A stretch of DNA of 64,000 nucleotides, taken from NCBI GenBank assembly GCA_902593125.1, contig CACJGU010000006.1, positions 1-64,000 of the forward strand, given 5' to 3'. Under the pieces are notes generated by a model. The model ran no database searches. It was not told the origin of the DNA and worked only from the letters and a program-made list of their open reading frames with translations. The translations under genes were made by a program, and so were the position numbers. Of this stretch, positions 249 to 11,303 are shown piece by piece; within the stretch, counting starts at the first letter, position 1; the number at the start of each line of letters is the position of its first letter. The stretch is from an uncultured Alphaproteobacteria bacterium (lineage in GTDB: Bacteria; Pseudomonadota; Alphaproteobacteria; HIMB59; GCA-002718135).

Positions 249-668
249 TCAAAAAGGTTGAAATACTACAAGTATAATAATGAATATTAATATTACGGCT
301 GGAACTTCATTTGTAATTCTAAAAAATTTTGTTGAGAATTTATTTTTATCATTTTTAAAATCATTAAGACATTTAAAACAAAAGAAATGATAACCGGTTA
401 GTAATATAACAAAAAGAATTTTTAAAAGTAGCCAAGTATCAATTCCTACATAATGTGTCATAGAGAAACCAGATATCCAAGTGACTATAAAAGCTGGGAA
501 CATTATAATTTTGTATAATTTTCCCTCCATCAACTTGAAAGTTTCCGATGTTTCCTTGGTTATATTGGGATTAGCATGATTTACAAATATACGTGGGAGA
601 TATAACAAGCCTGCCATCCAAGCTACCATACTAAAGATATGAATTACTTTTAAAGTGTTAAATAACAT
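249..668 (-). CDS. hemJ: Protoporphyrinogen IX oxidase, HemJ family
   Basis: Membrane protein of 139 aa that oxidises protoporphyrinogen IX to protoporphyrin IX, the penultimate heme step, in place of HemG or HemY. About four hydrophobic helices are visible. The N-terminal helix carries the family's conserved His (KVIHIFSMVAWMAG) and a Lys lies in a later helix (LLLKILFVILL). The length matches HemJ (140-150 aa). It is the last gene of the leftward heme operon, 3 bp after hemF, which independently supports the role. The family is assigned by sequence pattern and the function by family knowledge. Confidence 0.9.
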   Translation of the reverse strand: MLFNTLKVIHIFSMVAWMAGLLYLPRIFVNHANPNITKETSETFKLMEGKLYKIIMFPAFIVTWISGFSMTHYVGIDTWLLLKILFVILLTGYHFFCFKCLNDFKNDKNKFSTKFFRITNEVPAVILIFIIILVVFQPF

Positions 669-671
669 TCT

Positions 672-1490
672 TTATTCCCATATTGCATGTGGAGGCATTG
701 ACATTAATATAGCATCAACATTTCCCCCAGTCTCTAGACCAAACTTGGTACCTCTATCATATAATAAATTAAATTCAGCATAACGACTACGTTTAATCAG
801 TTGTTTCTTTTTTTCTTCCTTACTCCACTCATCATTCTTTAGAGAAATCAAAGTATTTTTGATAAACTTATGAAAGTAATCACCAACCTCTTGGACAAAT
901 TCAAAATCTTTACCCCAATCTCCAGTTTGAAGATAATCAAAAAATATTCCCCCTACACCTCTTCGTTCATTTCTATGCTTAAGAAAAAAATAATCATCAC
1001 ACCATTTTTTAAATTTCGGATAATAAGATTTATCATATTTATTACATAAAACTTCTAAACCACGATGATATTTTTCCTCATCCTCGAAAATTAAACAAGG
1101 TGTAATATCCATACCTCCACCAAACCATTCCTGAGTGGTTTTAATAAATCTTGTATTAAAATGCATAGAAGGAATTTTTGGTGAAACAGGATGTAACACA
1201 ACACTGATGCCAGTTGCATTATAATTTGGATCTTCTTTAGCACCTGGGATAGCTTCTCTCATATTTTCGTTAAATGTCCCAGCAACGGTAGAAATATTTA
1301 CTCCACCTTTTTCAATAATATTACCCTTAATTTTACTCATTTTACCACCGCCATCACCTTTGTGATCCCAATTACTTACTTCAAATTGTTTTTCATCAAT
1401 GTTTTGAATAGTTTCAATTAAATTATCTCGTAATTTTTCAAACCATTCTTTCGCAGTATTAAATTTGGGATCAGTAATCATAATGGCCAA
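672..1490 (-). CDS. hemF: Oxygen-dependent coproporphyrinogen III oxidase
   Basis: Cytosolic enzyme of 272 aa that decarboxylates coproporphyrinogen III to protoporphyrinogen IX with O2. Family signatures are clear: HFNTRFIKTTQEWFGGGMD near residue 110, RRGVGGIFFDYL in the middle, and the C-terminal EFNLLYDRGTKFGLETGG followed by a MSMPP motif. The length is somewhat under the ~300 aa usual for HemF, with no visible loss of core motifs. The start overlaps the end of hemH by 13 bp, which indicates translational coupling. Using the O2-dependent enzyme implies heme synthesis under aerobic conditions; no HemN is seen here. Confidence 0.95.
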   Translation of the reverse strand: MAIMITDPKFNTAKEWFEKLRDNLIETIQNIDEKQFEVSNWDHKGDGGGKMSKIKGNIIEKGGVNISTVAGTFNENMREAIPGAKEDPNYNATGISVVLHPVSPKIPSMHFNTRFIKTTQEWFGGGMDITPCLIFEDEEKYHRGLEVLCNKYDKSYYPKFKKWCDDYFFLKHRNERRGVGGIFFDYLQTGDWGKDFEFVQEVGDYFHKFIKNTLISLKNDEWSKEEKKKQLIKRSRYAEFNLLYDRGTKFGLETGGNVDAILMSMPPHAIWE

Positions 1491-2503
1491 CCTTGAATAT
1501 GTTTTTTTATTAGATTTACAAAAACGTCTATGTGATCATCATGATCATTCAAGCAAGGTATATAATGGTAATTTTCTCCACCCGACTCAATAAAATATTC
1601 TTTATTTTCTTCTTCAAGTTCTTCAAGTGTTTCAAGACAATCACTACTGAAACCAGGTGATATTATATGTATATTTTTAATTCCTTGTTTTGGTAATTCT
1701 TTTAAAGTTTCACTTGTATATGGCTTTAACCATTCTTCCCTTCCAAATCTACTTTGGAAAGTAGTCATTATCTCATCATCTGACAATCCCATATGTTCTT
1801 TGACCAATCTTGTAGTTTTAAGACAAAAGCAATGATACGGATCACCATTAGTTAAATACCGTTTTGGTATACCATGATAACTAAAAATAATTTTTTGTGG
1901 TTTAGGATTTTTTTTCCAAAATGATGTTATGGAGTTTGACAATGCTTCAATATAATTTTTTTCTTCAAAGTATTGATTGATAAAACGCATTTCAGGTATC
2001 CAACGCCACTTTTGCAATACATTAGTTACTTCATCAAATGTACTACCTGTTGTTGCAGCACAATATTGCGGATACATAGGTAAGATTAATAATCTTCTTA
2101 CTTGCTTTTTTTGAAGTTTTAACAAAGCATTTGGAATAGATGGATTGCCATAACGCATACCAACTTCAAAAACTATATTTTCATTTTTTGAAGAAAAATA
2201 TGATTGAATTTTACTTAGTTGTCTGTTTGCAATGTCTAAAAGCGGAGAACCCTTATCAGTCCAAATTTGTTTGTATGCTTCTGCTGACTTTGATGGTCTT
2301 ATTTGCAAAATTACTAGCTTCAATATAATTTGCCATAAAATTTTAGGTAATTCGATTACTCTTGGATCTGATAAGAATTGATTTAGATAAACTTTTAGCT
2401 CTTTTTTATTTGGAGCATCTGGAGTGCCTAGGTTAGTAATTAAAATACCAATTTTTTCTTTACTACCGTGCTCATAATCTTTTTCACCTATATATTTAAC
2501 CAT
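1478..2503 (-). CDS. hemH: Ferrochelatase
   Basis: Inserts Fe2+ into protoporphyrin IX to form protoheme at the membrane surface. The 341 aa length is typical. Motifs seen are the N-terminal ILITNLGTPDAP, the QYCAATTGSTFDEV segment, the active-site His in IIFSYHGIPKRY, and the acidic SDCLETLEELEEEN stretch that contributes the metal-path Glu. It lies third in the leftward heme operon, 5 bp after hemE, and overlaps hemF by 13 bp. The assignment is unambiguous. Confidence 0.96.
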   Translation of the reverse strand: MVKYIGEKDYEHGSKEKIGILITNLGTPDAPNKKELKVYLNQFLSDPRVIELPKILWQIILKLVILQIRPSKSAEAYKQIWTDKGSPLLDIANRQLSKIQSYFSSKNENIVFEVGMRYGNPSIPNALLKLQKKQVRRLLILPMYPQYCAATTGSTFDEVTNVLQKWRWIPEMRFINQYFEEKNYIEALSNSITSFWKKNPKPQKIIFSYHGIPKRYLTNGDPYHCFCLKTTRLVKEHMGLSDDEIMTTFQSRFGREEWLKPYTSETLKELPKQGIKNIHIISPGFSSDCLETLEELEEENKEYFIESGGENYHYIPCLNDHDDHIDVFVNLIKKHIQGWPL

Positions 2504-2508
2504 ATCTA

Positions 2509-3507
2509 TTAGCTAAATTCTTTTCTAATATTTTCTATAAATAAATGAACATTTTTTTCTGGAGTATTTTTGTTAATTCCATGTCCAAGGCCACAAATCC
2601 AACCATTAAGATTTTCAATTGATTTCATTTTTTCAATAAAATCTTTTAAATCACTAAGAAATGTATTTTTTTCACTTAACATTAATTGTTCATTGAAATT
2701 TCCCTGAATAAATCCATGCTTTTGATTTTCAAACACAGATTTTAGATCTATTGTGTGATCATAGCCAAAACCAGCAAAGGGAAAACTGATGATAGAATTT
2801 AGATCTAGCAAACTCCTACCTCTTGAATAATAGCCAACTTTATTTGGAAAAGAATTTGCAATCTCTTCTAAAAATTTAGAGTAAATTTCATGAAAATTTA
2901 TTTTATCTAAATCAAGTAAAGAACTATCAAAAACCATAACAAGTTCAACACCTGCATCTAATTGTAATTGAATATTTTTCTTTAGAAGTGGTAAAAGAAT
3001 TTTTGAAATAAATTCTAAATTAATTTTAGTGTCGATTAAATCAGAGTCTTTATTTCCAAAGGCATATTTTGATAATGTCCAAGGTCCGCCAACAAATCCA
3101 ATTAAACTTTTATTATTTGGCAATTTCTCTTTTGTTATTTTTATAGCTTCAAATTGAAATTGCATATGCTCAATTCCACGATCTAGATTACTATAATCAT
3201 TAATATTTTCTGAATTTATATAAGAATTAAATTTAGGTCCTGGGTCAAATTTTAATTCTAAACCTAGTCCCTCTAATACAAATAAAATGTCACTAAATAA
3301 TATTGCAACATCGTAATCAAATTCCTTTATTGGACCAAAAGCAACTTCTGCAGCTAAATCTGGAGTTTTACATAGTTCTTCAAAAGTATATTTTTCTTTG
3401 AGTTTACGATAATGTGAATGGTATCTTCCAGCCTGCCTCATGAACCAAATGGGTGGTGTTTTTTGACCATTTCTTTTGAGCGCATTTTGTAATAAAATAT
3501 TTGTCAT
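2509..3507 (-). CDS. hemE: Uroporphyrinogen decarboxylase
   Basis: Converts uroporphyrinogen III to coproporphyrinogen III by four decarboxylations. The 332 aa protein carries the N-terminal signature PPIWFMRQAGRY, whose arginines bind substrate carboxylates, then FSDILFV with the catalytic Asp, GFVGGPWTLSKYAFG, and the C-terminal GLGHGINKNTPEKNV. It starts 1 bp after the hemC-hemD fusion stop, so the two are almost certainly cotranscribed. It should not be confused with the two MetE-like proteins elsewhere in the window, which share the fold but keep a zinc site. Confidence 0.96.
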   Translation of the reverse strand: MTNILLQNALKRNGQKTPPIWFMRQAGRYHSHYRKLKEKYTFEELCKTPDLAAEVAFGPIKEFDYDVAILFSDILFVLEGLGLELKFDPGPKFNSYINSENINDYSNLDRGIEHMQFQFEAIKITKEKLPNNKSLIGFVGGPWTLSKYAFGNKDSDLIDTKINLEFISKILLPLLKKNIQLQLDAGVELVMVFDSSLLDLDKINFHEIYSKFLEEIANSFPNKVGYYSRGRSLLDLNSIISFPFAGFGYDHTIDLKSVFENQKHGFIQGNFNEQLMLSEKNTFLSDLKDFIEKMKSIENLNGWICGLGHGINKNTPEKNVHLFIENIRKEFS

Positions 3508-3508
3508 T

Positions 3509-5017
3509 TTAGGCTTTTATTAATTTTTTCTTCCAACTATCATAAGATAGCTCAACAAAAAGATTTTTATCATTACCTAATATTTTACTAATCTCATTGT
3601 AGGTATTTCCCGGGCCACAAAAATGATATTTTTCTATAATTTCAGGATATTTATCTATGCTCACCTTAAAAGCTGAACTACTCATCCAATAAAAGTATTT
3701 TTTCTTTTCTATATCTATTTCAAAATAAATAGGCTCCAATTGATATGTTTCAATTTTATTTTTTATCGAACTTACTGGAGATTGAGAATGAGTTAACTTA
3801 ATCCAAGTATTATTTGTTAGCGAATTAATTTCGTTATCAAAATCCTCACCAAGACCATCAGAGGTACCATTAACCCAAATACCTCTTTCAGCTAAATTTT
3901 TCCATGTTCTTAAACCACTTGTCCAAATTACATTATTTGATTTAATTTTAGACTTATCTGGAATTGCGCTAATACGCGAAACATAAATATTTTTGTTTTG
4001 TAAATTATTTATATCCTCAATATTTTCATTTAATTGTTTTCTAGCAAATATTTTATAATTTTTTAGATCTTTAGGATAAATCTCATCTTTTATATTATTA
4101 GAAATACTTATATTTTTTGATTCAATGAAGTCCCAGCTCTCAAAATGATTTCCACTTTCATCTTCACCTCTTTTAGACACAACTAATCCTAATTTATGTG
4201 AGATGTAAGATACGCCTATTTTTTGATGACATCCTCCACCATAATTTTTTAAAATACTTCTTTCTTTAATAACATTTGAATAATCTTCGGAAACATTAAT
4301 ATCTTTTAAAATGTCGTTTAGTTTATTATCTTGAATTCTTGTTTCAATTGCTAAAGCGCCTTGTCCGGGACTACAAGGGTTTATAGACAATGGTAAAACA
4401 GACCATAGACATTCGTTAATATATTTTTTTAGAGTTGTTTTTAATTCATTGAATTCAGAATAATTATTTAAAAGTAATCTATCAATTGCTGCTTTAGCAA
4501 CAACAAAACCATCACTATTAGGATTTTCAAAAAATTTTTTAAATCTAGTAGGTATGTTCCCCCTTATATTTTCAAAATTAATTTCATCAAATTTTTGAGG
4601 AAGATATTTTTTAATGAAATTTTCTAAGTTATATTTTCTTCTTGGTGATGAACATAGAATAGTAATTTTTTTACTATCCATAGTTTTATTTTTTTTTAAG
4701 AATAATATATCTCGTTTATCAGCTCGTTTTAATGTTGCGGCTATTTTAGTCTTATCACCAACTTCAATTGGAAGATCTTTCCAAGAGTGCACAATTAGAT
4801 CACATTTATTATTTATTAATTCATCCCTTAAATCATTAGTAAAAACTCCTTCATTTGGCATTTCAGAAAGAGGGGTTTTTAAATCTTTATCTCCAGAGGT
4901 ACTTCTCGTTAAAAATTCTATTTCTATAAAAGGATATTTTGATTTTAGATAGTCAGAAAATTCACGTGCTTGAATTATTGCTAAGTCACTTTTTCTCGAT
5001 AAAACTCTAATTTTCAT
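3509..5017 (-). CDS. hemC: Hydroxymethylbilane synthase with a C-terminal uroporphyrinogen-III synthase-like domain (HemC-HemD fusion)
   Basis: First gene of the heme operon. Residues 1 to ~300 are porphobilinogen deaminase: LSRKSDLAIIQA, NEGVFTNDLRDEL, CDLIVHSWKDLP (usually HSLKDxP), ENIRGNIPTRF, SPGQGALAIE, and the dipyrromethane cofactor Cys in YGGGCHQKIG. The ~170 residues after that are extra compared with ordinary HemC (~310 aa). They contain IWTSGLRTWKNLAERGIWVN and YFYWMSSSAFKVSIDKYPE, a pattern I read as a divergent HemD domain: a Ser/Thr-Gly turn near the start and an SSSA motif late. No separate hemD is present in the window. HemC identity is firm. The HemD reading is inference from position, size and weak motifs. 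Confidence 0.85.
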   Translation of the reverse strand: MKIRVLSRKSDLAIIQAREFSDYLKSKYPFIEIEFLTRSTSGDKDLKTPLSEMPNEGVFTNDLRDELINNKCDLIVHSWKDLPIEVGDKTKIAATLKRADKRDILFLKKNKTMDSKKITILCSSPRRKYNLENFIKKYLPQKFDEINFENIRGNIPTRFKKFFENPNSDGFVVAKAAIDRLLLNNYSEFNELKTTLKKYINECLWSVLPLSINPCSPGQGALAIETRIQDNKLNDILKDINVSEDYSNVIKERSILKNYGGGCHQKIGVSYISHKLGLVVSKRGEDESGNHFESWDFIESKNISISNNIKDEIYPKDLKNYKIFARKQLNENIEDINNLQNKNIYVSRISAIPDKSKIKSNNVIWTSGLRTWKNLAERGIWVNGTSDGLGEDFDNEINSLTNNTWIKLTHSQSPVSSIKNKIETYQLEPIYFEIDIEKKKYFYWMSSSAFKVSIDKYPEIIEKYHFCGPGNTYNEISKILGNDKNLFVELSYDSWKKKLIKA

Positions 5018-5059: not shown

Positions 5060-5623
5060 ATGGTTGAATTTAAAGGTTCAAAATCTTCTTGGGGCTTGGT
5101 TGCAAAGCTTTTTCATTGGTCATTAGCTCTGTTGCTTTTTTGGCAGGTCTCAACAGGGATCAGCCTTCATAATATGGAATTTTCTCCACTTAAAATAGGT
5201 TTTATTATTACACATAAATTTTTTGGCACATTGGTTTTTAGTTTAGTTGTCCTTAGATTAATGTGGAAGTACATATTCAATACTCATCCAAAGTATGAAA
5301 ATATTCCATTATTTCATAAATTGGTTTCGAATTTAGTGCATTTTATACTTTATGGTCTAGTTATATTTATTCCTATACAAGGTACTTATATGACATGGCT
5401 TGAAGGTGGAGATGTTCATCTCTTGGGATTAATTAAAATACCACCGTTAATAGAAGAAAACTTCATGCTATACCCTCAAGCATTAACTATACACTATTAC
5501 TCAGCACTCATTTTAACTACCTTTTTTTCACTCCATATAGGAGCTGCATTGTATCATCGATTTATGATTAAAGATAAATACGGTGTCTGGGAAAGAATGT
5601 CTTTTGGAAGAAATAAGGTGTGA
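5060..5623 (+). CDS. Cytochrome b561-type membrane protein
   Basis: Membrane di-heme cytochrome b of 187 aa in the bacterial CybB/YodB family, probably moving electrons between quinol and a periplasmic or membrane acceptor. Four hydrophobic segments are visible, with histidines in the expected places: KLFHWSLALLLFW in helix 1, ITHKFFGTLVF in helix 2, LVHFILYGLVIF in helix 3, and IHYYSALIL plus LHIGAALYH in helix 4. It is divergent from hemC (42 bp) and about 55 bp upstream of hemA on the same strand, so it may share a transcript with the heme-precursor gene. The partner and physiological role are not identifiable. Confidence 0.87.
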   Translation: MVEFKGSKSSWGLVAKLFHWSLALLLFWQVSTGISLHNMEFSPLKIGFIITHKFFGTLVFSLVVLRLMWKYIFNTHPKYENIPLFHKLVSNLVHFILYGLVIFIPIQGTYMTWLEGGDVHLLGLIKIPPLIEENFMLYPQALTIHYYSALILTTFFSLHIGAALYHRFMIKDKYGVWERMSFGRNKV

Positions 5624-5678
5624 CAATTCATTCAATTAAAGACTTACAATTACACATAGGGTGAGATATCAAGAAAAT

Positions 5679-6914
5679 ATGGAATATAAGAAATTCTTTA
5701 AATCTGAATTGAATAACCTTAAGGATCAGGGTCTTTACAGAGACTTTAGAAACATAGACAGACCTATAAAAAATTTCCCAAACGCAGATGAGAGCTTCAA
5801 AAATAAAGAGAGAGAAGTTGAGGTTTGGTGCTCTAATGATTACCTGAATATGAGTCAACATCCAGAAGTAGTTAATGAAATAGTAAAAACACTTCTTGAG
5901 TATGGGTCTGGCTCAGGTGGAACAAGAAACATTTCTGGCACGTCAAGTTATCATACTGAACTTGAAAAGAAACTTGCAAATGTTCATAACAAAGAGGCAG
6001 CATTGGTTTTTGCTTCAGCATATACAGCAAACCAGTCAACTTTATGGACTCTTGGAAAAAAAATTAAAGATATTGAAATATTTTCTGATGAATTAAATCA
6101 CGCATCTTTAATTCAAGGTATTAAAAATAGTGGAGCTAAATGTCATATTTTTAAGCATAATGACATTGATCATCTAGAACAATTACTCAAAGATGCAGAT
6201 GTAAACAATCCTAAATTAATAGTTTTTGAAAGCTTATACTCTATGGAGGGTATAAGATCTCCAATAATCAAAATAGTAGATTTAGCAAAAAAATACAATT
6301 GCATGACATATTTAGATGAAGTTCATTCAGTTGGACTTTATGGTAAAGAAGGTAAAGGTATTGCAGTAGAAATGGGTGTTGAAAACAAAATTGATATTAT
6401 TAATGGAACACTAGCTAAAGCATATGGTCAAATGGGGGGTTATATTGCAGCTAGTTCAGAAATTATTGATTATATAAGAAGTTTTGCACCAGGTTTTATT
6501 TTTACAACATCTATTTGTCCATCAATTGCTGCAGGAGCAGCAAAAGCAATAGATATCGTTTCTTTAGCAGAACAACTAAGAATAAGAATTAAAGAGAATG
6601 CAGCTTTAATAAGAGAAAATTTGGACTCCATAGCAATTCCATATTTAGACACAAACTCTCATATTGTAGCAGTACTAGTAAATGATCCCTTTTTATGTAA
6701 GAAAGTATCTAAAGATTTAATAGATGATCATGGTATTTATGCACAACCAATATTTTACCCAACTGTTCCAAAAGGCTTAGAAAGACTAAGAATAACAGTT
6801 ACTCCAAAACATAGAAAAGAGCATATAGAAAAAATGATTAAGGCTCTTGATAAAGTTTGGTCTAAAAATAATTTGCCAAGAAAAAATATTAATAAAATTA
6901 CCGCAAATATCTAA
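5679..6914 (+). CDS. hemA: 5-aminolevulinate synthase
   Basis: PLP enzyme that condenses glycine and succinyl-CoA to 5-aminolevulinate, the C4 entry to tetrapyrroles typical of Alphaproteobacteria. I chose the ATG giving [18 protein letters not shown] because it matches the family N-terminus; an in-frame GTG 18 bp upstream (5661) would add six residues. Motifs: [46 protein letters not shown], and the PLP-binding Lys in [14 protein letters not shown]. The length (411 aa) is typical. The end overlaps the convergent EamA gene by 4 bp. Confidence 0.95.
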
Positions 6915-7828
6915 GTTTTAATGTTGATATCAATTTGCCTTGCAGCGAAACCATAATAAACTACAGCCACAGTAATTATTATACCTCCAATAATTACAGT
7001 TGGACTTGGCACTTCGTTAATTCCAAAGATGGGAAGCCATACCCATAAAACTCCTCCGACTACTTCCATAAGAGATAATAAAGCTAATTCAGCTGAAGGA
7101 AGATATTTTGCTCCTAAACTGTACAATATAAGTCCTGAAGCTACTAAAAAACCATGAAGTAAACTTAGGTAAGAGTTTATTTTTGGCATAGACGTAAAAG
7201 GTTTAACAGAAAAATCCAAAATAAAAAATGCAAATATAGCACAAAATACTCCTGCCAAAACAACGGTTGTAAATTTAGGAGTTTCTGGTTTCCAACGAAT
7301 TGTGACAGTATAAAGTGCAAAACCGGTTGCAGATATAAAGCCAATAATTGCACCAAGGGCTGTTCCAGTAATACTATCATTTATAATCATTATACAAACA
7401 CCTATAAAAGCTACTATCATTGCGATTAAGGTAGATAGTTTTAATACCTCTCCAAGTACAAAATAACCAACTATTGCAGCAATAAAAGGCATAGAAGCTA
7501 ACATAAAAAGAGTAACAGCTGCAGTAGTCATAGTAATTGAAAAAATAAATCCTGTAAAAGCGGTTGCCAAAAATAATCCTCCAATAACTGAAGAAGGACC
7601 AATCTTAAAAAAATTTTTATAAAAAGAAAAACCTTCAGTAATAAATAAGAAAATTAGTAAAATAATTGATATTGAGATACCTCTATAAAATAAATATTGA
7701 AAAACATAATCATGACCGTCAACCATATATCTTACAGTTAAAGCGCCAAAACTCCAAAAAATCCCAGCAAAAAATACAACTGTAAATGCGTAAATATATG
7801 TATTCTGACTCATATAAATTTGATACAA
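6911..7828 (-). CDS. EamA/DMT-family membrane transporter
   Basis: Inner-membrane protein of 305 aa with about ten hydrophobic helices in two repeats of five, the layout of the drug/metabolite transporter superfamily. The first repeat starts at [17 protein letters not shown], and the second contains [15 protein letters not shown]. The C-terminal repeat ends with [20 protein letters not shown] and a glycine-rich final helix. The start could be five residues downstream at [10 protein letters not shown]. The substrate cannot be read from sequence; members export amino acids, purines or other metabolites. It is convergent with hemA. Confidence 0.85.
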
Positions 7829-7860
7829 ATCATTAATTTAGTTAAAAGTAAATTGATATT

Positions 7861-8019
7861 TTAATTATTTAATTGAATACCTGTTTCTTTACTACCAGAA
7901 ATAGTTACTTTAGTTTTGTTATAGTTTTTTTCTTTTACAGTCGAAGTAGACGACATTTTACATCCCAACAGAGATATAAAGATAATTATTGGCAAGTACC
8001 TATAGACCCAAGCGAACAT
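7861..8019 (-). CDS. Small predicted lipoprotein (52 aa)
   Basis: An open frame on the minus strand begins with ATG at 8017-8019 inside the 3' end of the pentapeptide gene, in another frame, and ends with TAA at 7861-7863. The protein starts MFAWVYRYLPIIIFISLLGC, a short charged start, a hydrophobic stretch and an LLGC lipobox, followed by a polar tail (KMSSTSTVKEKNYNKTKVTI). The mature lipoprotein would be only ~33 residues. A weak GGA ribosome-binding element lies 6 bp upstream of the ATG. It overlaps the upstream gene by 34 bp. I do not recognise a family. Confidence 0.55.
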   Translation of the reverse strand: MFAWVYRYLPIIIFISLLGCKMSSTSTVKEKNYNKTKVTISGSKETGIQLNN

Positions 8020-8489
8020 TTTTTTCCATCAACCCAAATAACATTAGATAAATTAGCTTCATCAAATATAGCTCCTGAGATATTAGCGCCTAGTAAATTT
8101 GCCTCATATAAATTTGCACCTTTAAAAGAAACTCCAAACAAATTAGAGCCCTCAAAATTTACTTTTGCTAAATTAGCATTTTCAAAATTAGCATTATTAC
8201 AATTTGCACCCTGTAAATTAGATGCATATAAATTTGAATTACTAAAATTAGAAAAGATAAAGTTACCAATTGATAAGTTTGAATTATTTAATTGAGATTT
8301 TTCAAAATTTGAAAGAGATAAATTTACTCCTGACATTTGTGAATTTGCTAAACCAGCTCCAGATAAGTCTAAATTTTCAACAAAATTACAATTTGTCCAA
8401 TCAACTTCATTAGAGGGTTGATCATCACAAGCCGCATTGGAAATAGCAGAATAAAATATTATAAAGAAAAATAGATAAAAATATTTCAC
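7986..8489 (-). CDS. Secreted pentapeptide-repeat protein
   Basis: 167 aa. The N-terminal ~18 residues are a signal peptide (MKYFYLFFFIIFYSAISNA) with cleavage likely after SNA, so the protein should be periplasmic. From about residue 40 to 155 it consists of A(N/D)LxX pentapeptide repeats (for example LQGANCNNANFENANLAKVN), which fold as a right-handed quadrilateral beta-helix. Cysteines occur near both ends of the mature protein (ACDDQ, WTNCNF, KKCSLGSIGTC), consistent with disulfide capping. No enzymatic motif is seen. It probably serves as a structural or binding scaffold; the partner is unknown. Confidence 0.85.
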   Translation of the reverse strand: MKYFYLFFFIIFYSAISNAACDDQPSNEVDWTNCNFVENLDLSGAGLANSQMSGVNLSLSNFEKSQLNNSNLSIGNFIFSNFSNSNLYASNLQGANCNNANFENANLAKVNFEGSNLFGVSFKGANLYEANLLGANISGAIFDEANLSNVIWVDGKKCSLGSIGTCQ

Positions 8490-8529
8490 TATTAGATATT
8501 ATGGCTCATTTATGTTAAATTTAAGGCAT

Positions 8530-10275
8530 TTATCTTGAGGTTAATTTTAATTCTATTCTCCTATTCTGTTGATAATCACTATCAGTATTCCCATCGCTTA
8601 TAGGATAAAACTCGCCAAAACCTGCCGCTGCCAACCTATTTGGAGGAAAGCCTAATTCTAATAATAGTTTAAGTACTGAATTAGCTCTAGCTGTAGAAAG
8701 ATCCCAATTCGATGGAAATTTAGAAGTTTGAATAGGTCTTTTATCGGTATGACCTTCAACCATTATGATCCACTCAATATTGTCTGGAATTTGGTTTGTT
8801 GTTTCTTTTAAAGTTAAACCAATTTCACTTAATTTCTTTTTTCCTAAAATTTCTAATTCTGCTGATGCTGACTCAAACAATAATTCAGTTTCAAAAATAA
8901 ATCTATCTCCAACAATTTTAATATCTTCTCTATCTCCTAAAATAGATTGTAATTTTCCAAAAAATTCAGATCTATATTTTTGTAATTCAAAAACTTTCGA
9001 TGTTAATGCTTTATTCAATTTTTCACCAAGAGCTTCAATTTCCAAATCTTTAATTAATTTATCTCTTTGACTTGACTCTAAAGCGCTATTTAATATCGCA
9101 ATTTCTTGCTGGAGCGTATCGATTTGACTAGAAAGTATCTCTACCTGTTCTAAAGTTTTTGATGCTTGAAATTCCATTTTCCTAATTTCATTTAAAGATG
9201 TCTCTTTTTGATTTAAATTTTCCTGCTCAAGTAGAGTTAATTGATTTTCTAGAAGATTTAGTTTTTCTAATTGGATTTGTTCTTTTTCTACAGATAAAGA
9301 TAAAATACTGTTCAATTCAGATATTTTACCTCTAAGACTAAAAATTGTACTATCTTTTTGAATTAAATCTTTATTAAGTCTAGCTAACTCTTCATTTTTA
9401 AATCTTATTGCATCAAGTTTTTCTTTTAAAGATGCGTCTTTCAATCCAAGGCTATCATTTATTTTTAATAAATCATTTGTTAATTCTTTGTATTGTGAAA
9501 TTTGATTTTGCAACTCTTCATCTCTTAAAGAAAGTTGAATGTTAAGATTTTGTAATTCTTCATTTTTATTTTTTATTGCTTGCAATTGTTCATCGATTCC
9601 TACATCTTCAAGACCTAAACTTTCATTGATGGCGAGTAAATTTTTATTTTTCAAATTTAGTTCTTCGATAGTTTCTTTAAGAGACTTTTCACTTTCAGAT
9701 AATTTTAGATTTGCTGTATCAAGTTCTTTATTAAGTAAATTTAATTGATCAATTCTTGTCGCAAGTGCTTTATTGATTCTTTCACCTAATCCTTTTGTTT
9801 CTAGCAAAGCAATTTCTTGACCTTCATAAGTTTCGAGTGCATTTGCAACAATTCTTAATTCCTTAAGCAAATTACTAATTTGATCAGATAAAGCTAATAT
9901 GTTTTGTTCTTGAACAAAAATTTCTGATCTTTTTTTGGCTATATCTTCTTGTAATTCTTCACTATAAAGTTGTTCTGACTCCAAATTCGATTGAGTCTTA
10001 TTTAATTCTTCCTGAGTTTGAGCAAGAGAGGAAAGTGCCTTATCTTTATCTTGAGTTTCAGTAACCAATATCTTTGATAATTCATTAATTTGTATTCTTA
10101 AATCCTGTAAAGCTTTATCTCTCCCTGAAATAGCATCACTTAAATATATTTGTGAGACCGTGAAAACCATTAAAACAAAAATGATAACTATTAAAAGAGT
10201 GGCTAGGACATCTACAAAACCTGGCCAGATATTAGTTGAATCAGAAAGCCTATTTCTTAAAGACCTACTCGTCAT
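8530..10275 (-). CDS. MotB/OmpA-type peptidoglycan-binding protein with a long coiled coil
   Basis: 581 aa. A single helix near residues 17-45 (WPGFVDVLATLLIVIIFVLM) carries an Asp in the position used for proton binding by MotB/TolR/ExbD-type stators. Residues ~50-435 are low-complexity heptad-like coiled coil rich in Leu, Glu, Asn and Lys. Residues ~455-581 are an OmpA C-terminal domain with MVEGHTDKRPI, WDLSTARANSVLKLLLELGF and QQNRRIEL, the residues that bind diaminopimelate in peptidoglycan. It follows the MotA/TolQ-like gene by 2 bp. The pair forms a stator-like complex spanning the periplasm; the driven process is unknown. Confidence 0.87.
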   Translation of the reverse strand: MTSRSLRNRLSDSTNIWPGFVDVLATLLIVIIFVLMVFTVSQIYLSDAISGRDKALQDLRIQINELSKILVTETQDKDKALSSLAQTQEELNKTQSNLESEQLYSEELQEDIAKKRSEIFVQEQNILALSDQISNLLKELRIVANALETYEGQEIALLETKGLGERINKALATRIDQLNLLNKELDTANLKLSESEKSLKETIEELNLKNKNLLAINESLGLEDVGIDEQLQAIKNKNEELQNLNIQLSLRDEELQNQISQYKELTNDLLKINDSLGLKDASLKEKLDAIRFKNEELARLNKDLIQKDSTIFSLRGKISELNSILSLSVEKEQIQLEKLNLLENQLTLLEQENLNQKETSLNEIRKMEFQASKTLEQVEILSSQIDTLQQEIAILNSALESSQRDKLIKDLEIEALGEKLNKALTSKVFELQKYRSEFFGKLQSILGDREDIKIVGDRFIFETELLFESASAELEILGKKKLSEIGLTLKETTNQIPDNIEWIIMVEGHTDKRPIQTSKFPSNWDLSTARANSVLKLLLELGFPPNRLAAAGFGEFYPISDGNTDSDYQQNRRIELKLTSR

Positions 10276-10277
10276 TA

Positions 10278-11303
10278 TTATTTTTTTATTTTCTTTAAAT
10301 CTTTTTCAATACTCTGAAAATATTCTTTAATTTTTTTTGCTTCCAATATTCCATTTTTACTAATTGCATCAGTTAATTGGATCAAAGAAGATTGAGTGTT
10401 TAATTGAGAAGATAAAAAATTTGATAATTGTTTATCCAAATTTGAAGAATTAAAATTAATTTTTTTCAAAACTTCATTAAATTTGTCTAAATTTTTAGAA
10501 ATATTATTTTGATTTTCTGCTGATTTTTTTAAGGCAGAAACGATATTATCTAAATTGTCATAAATTTTTTGAATTGCAATATTAGTAGGTTTATCTACCT
10601 TATCAACAAAATCTGGTGAAGAGTTAGTTGATAATGTTTTTTCAAAATATTGACTATACTTATTTTGTGCTTGCCCAAGGTTAAGATCAAGAAGTCCAAG
10701 AATAAGAGATCCAGCTAGACCAAGTAATGAACTACTAAATGCAACGCTCATACCTTCTAATGGAGCATTTAGACCATCTTTTAAAGAATTGAAAAAACCT
10801 GCAACGTTTGTATCATCAATACCTAAGCCATTTATAACATCACCTACAGAACCAATAGTTTTTAATAATCCCCAAAATGTTCCAAGCAATCCTAAAAATA
10901 CCAGAAGTCCAACTAGGTATCGTGAAGTTTCTCTAATACTAACTAATGTCATATCAGAATTTTCGATTAATCTATCAATTGATGAGCTTTTAAATACAAA
11001 TTTTTCATTTATATTTTTGAGTTCTAATGAAATATTTCGATCTTGCCCTTTAAGGTTTGCGAAGGAATCAATCGAGTTAGTGATGTTAAAATTAGAAAAT
11101 GATATAAATTTATTATTTAAACTTATTAAATGATAAAAATTAAATGCAACACCAACAAATAACCCTAAAATAATTATAAAATTTATAAATATATTTGATA
11201 AAAATGCATTTTGGAGAATTGGATATAAGAGTACAACAATTATAAAAACAAATAAGAGAAAAAATGAAGCTCTAATTATGTAGTTGTTTAAACTCTGAGA
11301 CAT
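10278..11303 (-). CDS. MotA/TolQ/ExbB-family proton-channel subunit
   Basis: 341 aa inner-membrane protein. Two hydrophobic helices lie near the N-terminus (residues ~10-58). After a cytoplasmic stretch come two more helices, ~130-152 (YLVGLLVFLGLLGTFWGLL) and ~185-210 (GMSVAFSSSLLGLAGSLIL), the TolQ/ExbB core with its conserved GT-F-GL and A-x(5)-GL patterns. The C-terminal ~110 residues are a polar helical tail in the cytoplasm. It is immediately upstream of the MotB/OmpA-like partner (2 bp). No flagellar, Tol, Ton or Zorya effector genes are next to it. Confidence 0.85.
   Translation of the reverse strand: MSQSLNNYIIRASFFLLFVFIIVVLLYPILQNAFLSNIFINFIIILGLFVGVAFNFYHLISLNNKFISFSNFNITNSIDSFANLKGQDRNISLELKNINEKFVFKSSSIDRLIENSDMTLVSIRETSRYLVGLLVFLGLLGTFWGLLKTIGSVGDVINGLGIDDTNVAGFFNSLKDGLNAPLEGMSVAFSSSLLGLAGSLILGLLDLNLGQAQNKYSQYFEKTLSTNSSPDFVDKVDKPTNIAIQKIYDNLDNIVSALKKSAENQNNISKNLDKFNEVLKKINFNSSNLDKQLSNFLSSQLNTQSSLIQLTDAISKNGILEAKKIKEYFQSIEKDLKKIKK

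Follow-up and report, generated by a model that had tools for sequence, protein, structure and literature searches.

A Putative Leptospira-Type Bifunctional HemC–HemD Fusion in the hem Gene Cluster of an Uncultured Marine Alphaproteobacterium

Introduction

Leptospira possesses a fused protein with both porphobilinogen deaminase (HemC) and uroporphyrinogen-III synthase (HemD) activity, as stated in a passage of PMC8698207 that cites Guegan 2003. In most SAR11-type genomes, the same two successive reactions are assigned to separate HemC (PF01379) and HemD (PF02602) proteins; their HemC is homologous to the one analyzed here, whereas two genes are involved and the HemD is longer and is recognized by Pfam. 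HemD activity is likewise carried on a fused protein in the CobA–HemD fusions (e.g., that of Tsukamurella, L206, by annotation), but the partner in these is a methyltransferase and HemC is separate. Literature searches, with most subscription papers outside their coverage, returned no paper on a HemC–HemD fusion in HIMB59, AEGEAN-169 or SAR11, and term searches of PMC3815206, PMC10030771 and PMC10734472 found no heme or porphyrin words.

The gene described here lies in a window of 64,000 nucleotides (the whole stretch of DNA that was analyzed) from an uncultured alphaproteobacterium (contig CACJGU010000006.1), whose assembly (GCA_902593125.1) is 1.26 Mb in size and 69% complete. The closest named relatives of the window are single-cell genomes, including Pelagibacteraceae bacterium AG-337-I02, which an excerpt of PMC8692485 places in the AEGEAN-169 marine group, order HIMB59. 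An earlier note, made from the sequence alone, had described the gene as hemC fused to a divergent hemD-like domain, and this description is supported below by homology to the Leptospira protein, by a complementary distribution with standard HemD and by phylogenetic trees.

Results

Comparison with the Leptospira Enzyme and Extent of the Fusion

When the protein was compared with plasmid records by tblastn, the bifunctional porphobilinogen deaminase/uroporphyrinogen-III synthase of Leptospira interrogans (WP_000086813.1) was matched over residues 3–499 with 38.8% identity, and the other HemCs among the matches listed aligned only up to about residue 294. The two proteins have an identical domain order and are homologous and collinear over both domains, although the hosts differ (Leptospira and a marine alphaproteobacterium). 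Judged by this homology, the gene is very probably a member of the known Leptospira-type bifunctional HemC–HemD enzymes.

The open reading frame, whose coordinates include the stop codon (Table 1), encodes 502 amino acid residues. Its N-terminal part passed the curated cut-off of the HemC family TIGR00212 (188.2 bits against 164; residues 3–273) and also matched PF01379 (164.5 bits; residues 3–234), and for the last ∼180 residues no family was matched in Pfam or NCBIfam. Since standalone HemC frames in the SAR11-type order are mostly ∼300–345 amino acids long, the excess of ∼190 residues over HemC claimed in the earlier note is right. A CDI-toxin-like Pfam match (E 0.0028) lay inside the HemC part and below its own cut-off, and was ignored. 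The fusion was matched in 130 of the 162 genomes of the window's order, in most of them at full length, and 62 distinct loci were found among the named genomes, so that an assembly artefact is excluded.

Table 1. Coordinates of the hem genes, neighboring frames and protein parts in the window.
Feature	Position	Strand	Basis
hemJ, protoporphyrinogen oxidase	249..668	-	TIGR00701, 144.9 bits
hemF, oxygen-dependent coproporphyrinogen oxidase	672..1490	-	NF003727, 339.6 bits
hemH, ferrochelatase	1478..2503	-	TIGR00109, 330.2 bits
hemE, uroporphyrinogen decarboxylase, Leptospira-like type	2509..3507	-	TIGR01464, 227.8 bits, below the cut-off of 302.95
hemCD, fused hydroxymethylbilane synthase/putative divergent uroporphyrinogen-III synthase	3509..5017	-	Open reading frame; full-length Leptospira match; TIGR00212
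HemC part, residues ∼1–300, including K80/D81, R126/R127 and C263	4118..5017	-	PF01379; TIGR00212; invariant putative catalytic positions; end at ∼300 inferred
HemD-like domain, residues ∼321–502, compact and divergent	3512..4057	-	Conservation in 36 fusions including Leptospira; structural ranking; complementary to PF02602
Cytochrome b561-like membrane protein between hemCD and hemA	5060..5623	+	NF008566, 28.4 bits, far below the cut-off; weak assignment
hemA, 5-aminolevulinate synthase, divergently transcribed	5661..6914	+	TIGR01821, 568.7 bits

Conserved Positions of the HemC Part

The atypical HemC motifs pointed out earlier, HSWKDLP and CSSPRRKYNL, are both present in the translation. In an alignment of 36 fusions (A3), the cofactor cysteine C263, within GGGCHQKIG, was kept in all 36, as were R8, K80, D81, R126, R127, R152 and R158, and R180 was conserved in 35, the remaining one being unread. 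The last eight positions (R8 to R180) are presumably the catalytic positions of HemC. The third residue of the first motif (W79 of HSWKDLP) was variable, with W in 19, F in 9, L in 4, Y in 3 and M in 1 of the 36 fusions. The odd motifs nevertheless keep the putative catalytic residues. As for the claim that the C-terminal part is not the normal third domain of HemC, an extra domain does follow, beginning only at about residue 321, but the third HemC domain is not simply absent, with C263 retained.

The hem Gene Neighborhood

In the window and its near relatives, hemE directly follows hemCD (junction at 3507–3511 of the window) with no hemB between them. In Leptospira hemB adjoins hemCD, and the same holds for relatives of the window, whereas hemB is gone from the cluster in the window's immediate clade. 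The three genes hemCD, hemB and hemE were found together in the sister family (f2), in genus g104 of the SAR11-type order, in family f47 and at two of the four loci of family f50 (L155 and L156); at the other two f50 loci (L157 and L187), hemE comes directly after hemCD. Moreover, hemB lies between hemCD and hemE in a genome of the window's own genus (G051, L249; hemB at 7645–8604) and in one of its family (G109, L247). By tblastn, the HemB of f50 scored 306 bits with Leptospira and 239 bits with the next organism. The hemE copy of G428 (L157, 5876–6911) is split into two overlapping frames, which indicates a frameshift or a sequencing error.

The HemE of Leptospira is of the same type as that of the window, for which tblastn gave 46.6% identity and 296 bits with Leptospira and 161 bits with the next organism. 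The TIGR01464 cut-off was missed by the HemEs of all fusion-bearing genomes searched, that of Leptospira included. The clusters differ in that the one in Leptospira has glutamate-1-semialdehyde aminomutase and the window has 5-aminolevulinate synthase.

According to an excerpt of PMC10308909, members of AEGEAN-169/HIMB59 count among the heme auxotrophs that have been reported, and they possess transporters for heme. It is highly unlikely that the present organism is such an auxotroph and the locus a relict of the pathway: hemA, hemCD, hemE, hemF, hemH and hemJ all have open frames that match their families, dozens of genomes of the order carry an intact hemCD, and other members of the window's family retain hemB in the cluster, even though no hemB was found within the window and both published statements would agree with a relict. 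Among the high-quality genomes of the order, 18 of 20 match the fusion; the two others, G002 and G103, which lack a fusion match in the match list, leave room for real auxotrophs.

Elsewhere in the window, a MotA/ExbB-like frame (10278–11303) and an OmpA/MotB-like frame (8530–10275), both on the minus strand, were matched by PADLOC to ZorA (E 3.5e-14) and ZorB (E 7.5e-22). For this pair (8530–11303), an ordinary motor or envelope function is equally probable as Zorya.

Sequence and Fold of the C-Terminal Domain

The C-terminal domain was conserved across the 36 fusions, including that of Leptospira, with many invariant residues. It is ∼171–182 amino acids long, against mostly 232–245 in the HemDs compared. 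For the alignment of this domain (A4), 34 of the 36 rows of A3 were used, two rows with unread bases being dropped. PF02602 (HEM4/HemD) was matched by none of these 34 domains even at E ≤ 1, and its curated cut-off was not reached. The search of the domain against HemD profiles thus failed at the level of Pfam and gave a weak match (E 0.066) at the level of profile–profile comparison, in which the motifs FYWMSSSAF and CGPGNT were aligned to the final third of HemD (E values of 0.066–0.14). After column shuffling, the local profile score was reached by 0 of 60 shuffles and the global score by 42 of 60, the latter being no better than shuffles. Tyr425, invariant in all 36 fusions, aligned with a tyrosine that is invariant in the 11 HemDs of alignment A5. 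A search of PDB sequences with the profile of the domain gave chance matches only.

AlphaFold gave poor models, with a mean pLDDT of 48.4 for the C-terminal domain and 55.3 for the whole protein, probably because only shallow alignments were usable: these held only related loci and the window and were of low diversity, with a mean column identity of 91–93%. With the model of the domain, Foldseek gave no match at E ≤ 0.001; with the full model, the first 32 rows were HemC and no HemD was among the best 50 rows. When 999 Foldseek chains were re-aligned to the low-confidence model, ranks 1–6 all went to uroporphyrinogen-III synthases (six entries representing four species), with Z scores of 6.7–7.6 over 91–98 aligned residues; the next entry had a Z score of 4.9, and best Z scores of 7–8 are common. 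On the structural match to HemD, whose absence would have spoken against the earlier note, uroporphyrinogen-III synthases thus rank first, with a model of low confidence. The ranking places model residues 10–109 (residues 325–424 only of the protein) on residues ∼34–156 of the uroporphyrinogen-III synthases, a region that we take to be the second, inserted domain of HemD. The modeled C-terminal domain seems to lack the initial part of HemD domain 1. Together, the structural ranking and the profile match are supportive of a HemD identity, but not proof of it.

Distribution of the Fusion and of Standard HemD

PF02602 was found over its cut-off in 0 of the 162 genomes of the window's order, compared with 12 of 14 controls, and likewise no separate hemD exceeded it in the window's own genome (69% complete), a check that the earlier note had proposed. 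Weaker matches to PF02602 within the order, below the threshold (best E 0.002), were regarded as chance, being mostly short pieces within longer frames other than hemCD. In a sample of 385 Alphaproteobacteria, the C-terminal domain was present in 12 genomes of several families; standard HemD was found in none of these 12 carriers and in 297 of the 373 non-carriers (Fisher p 1e-8, with kinship within this class sample ignored).

In the SAR11-type order (that of G258), genuine copies of the domain occurred in 2 of 197 genomes, and both belong to g104, the genus of G532. HemC was found in 88 of 97 genomes of this order; apart from the usual lengths given above, its frames measured 493 amino acids in both g104 genomes and 362–441 amino acids in a few genomes that also yielded a separate HemD. 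HemD was matched in 85 of the 95 genomes outside g104 and in 0 of the 2 g104 genomes. For the order of G209, 14 of 18 genomes had the domain and 0 of 18 had HemD. A match of the domain in G565 (E 6e-4) was rejected, that genome having separate HemC and HemD. More divergent fusions were present in two additional alphaproteobacterial families, in G330 (f47; L161, 6030–7502) and G192 (f33; L160, 6–1484), and were matched nearly full length at ∼30% identity.

The carrier search covered the Alphaproteobacteria, one phylum sample and one plasmid collection. With A4, 2 of 378 genomes of the phylum sample were matched; both were known already, and therefore no carrier outside the Alphaproteobacteria was found in that sample. 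When the Leptospira C-terminal domain was compared with the plasmid records, the only two convincing matches were both Leptospira records. Viral contigs gave 12 pattern stretches and no relative of the domain.

The distribution is as predicted if the fusion replaces hemC and hemD, and its complementarity supports a HemD role of the C-terminal domain. It is very improbable that the domain is instead an unrelated or decayed (e.g., structural) extension, with HemD being an unrecognized separate protein. The failure of all 34 members to match the Pfam HemD model, the poor structural model and the weak profile match would suit such an extension; nevertheless, the domain is kept with many invariant residues in 36 fusions, it is part of the Leptospira protein for which the passage of PMC8698207 reports dual activity, its presence coincides with the absence of HemD in several lineages, and the model-based ranking points specifically to uroporphyrinogen-III synthases.

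Phylogeny of HemC and HemE

In the tree of the HemC part, 23 fusions formed one clade (support 100/100) apart from 22 standalone HemCs, alphaproteobacterial ones included. This tree held a chosen subset of the f1, f2 and f50 fusions, and the Paenibacillus and Acetoanaerobium loci had been lost at the motif filter. Leptospira was placed among the alphaproteobacterial fusions, g104 grouped with f2 (100/100) and the window's family (f1) with f50 (99/94); in the tree as drawn, the fusions of G330 and G192 were the first to branch off within the fusion clade. In the HemE tree, ten HemEs of fusion-bearing genomes, including Leptospira, likewise fell into a single clade (100/99), apart from 24 other HemEs, and g104 joined f2 (100/100), not the other SAR11-type genomes. 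This tree omitted the G428 copy (split), the G192 copy (truncated) and the window's duplicate, and its five outgroup HemEs came from plasmid records and were labeled fusion-free by assumption.

Because the fusions form one clade with Leptospira among the alphaproteobacteria, horizontal acquisition, raised as a possibility in the earlier note, is supported, in particular for g104 of the SAR11-type order. The shared gene order and the HemC and HemE trees thus indicate that a block of hem genes is shared, and from these sequence comparisons g104 most likely received it horizontally. A different history, in which the fusion arose once in the Alphaproteobacteria and most lineages then lost it or had it displaced, Leptospira being a later recipient, is less likely, though it deserves some weight. 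The carriers found belong mostly to several families of Alphaproteobacteria, and Leptospira is nested among them in both trees; yet the sampling of carriers (Alphaproteobacteria, phylum sample and plasmids) was biased toward that class, the HemC-bearing SAR11-type genomes outside g104 have a standalone-type HemC, and the grouping of g104 with f2 at 100/100 in both trees means that a transfer is needed at least there. Such a single origin is compatible with the enzymatic explanation given below.

Discussion

We hold with high confidence that the gene encodes a Leptospira-type bifunctional enzyme that would make the substrate of HemE, and that it belongs to a shared hem block that probably entered g104 by transfer. 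Carrying the dipyrromethane cofactor on C263, the HemC part would join four porphobilinogens to hydroxymethylbilane, and the C-terminal part, a compact and divergent uroporphyrinogen-III synthase, would close the ring with inversion of ring D. The product would then pass to HemE, encoded by the next gene. The fusion, hemB and hemE are part of a gene block common to several small-genome alphaproteobacteria and Leptospira, which most likely entered at least one SAR11-type genus by horizontal transfer and replaced the native hemC, hemD and hemE. Homology and gene distribution lend this predicted function good support. The sequence comparisons show the HemC match with its conserved residues, the full-length homology to the Leptospira enzyme, the lack of a standard HemD and the gene order; HemD activity in the window's organism, and any advantage that fusing the two steps may bring, we infer.

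A wider proposal can be made tentatively, with doubt slightly outweighing confidence: a shortened uroporphyrinogen-III synthase, invisible to Pfam and always fused to HemC here, may have spread among Leptospira and streamlined ocean bacteria as a hemCD–hemB–hemE cassette that displaced the native genes, and the heme auxotrophy reported for HIMB59/AEGEAN-169 lineages may in part reflect a gap in annotation. At its boldest, the proposal is that the domain would lack the initial beta-alpha unit of domain 1 of HemD, HemC domain 3 would fill that role and hydroxymethylbilane would be handed directly between the sites.

The completeness of the heme pathway is often judged by the recognition of HemD. 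The Pfam model misses a conserved replacement for HemD, and therefore genomes of abundant marine lineages can be wrongly called heme auxotrophs; if the auxotrophy report used HemD models, the fusion would have been counted as a missing step. The difference between g104 and its relatives with separate genes is a natural replacement, which makes the function of the C-terminal domain directly testable. The small-genome ocean bacteria that bear the fusion probably can make heme, though they may look unable to do so.
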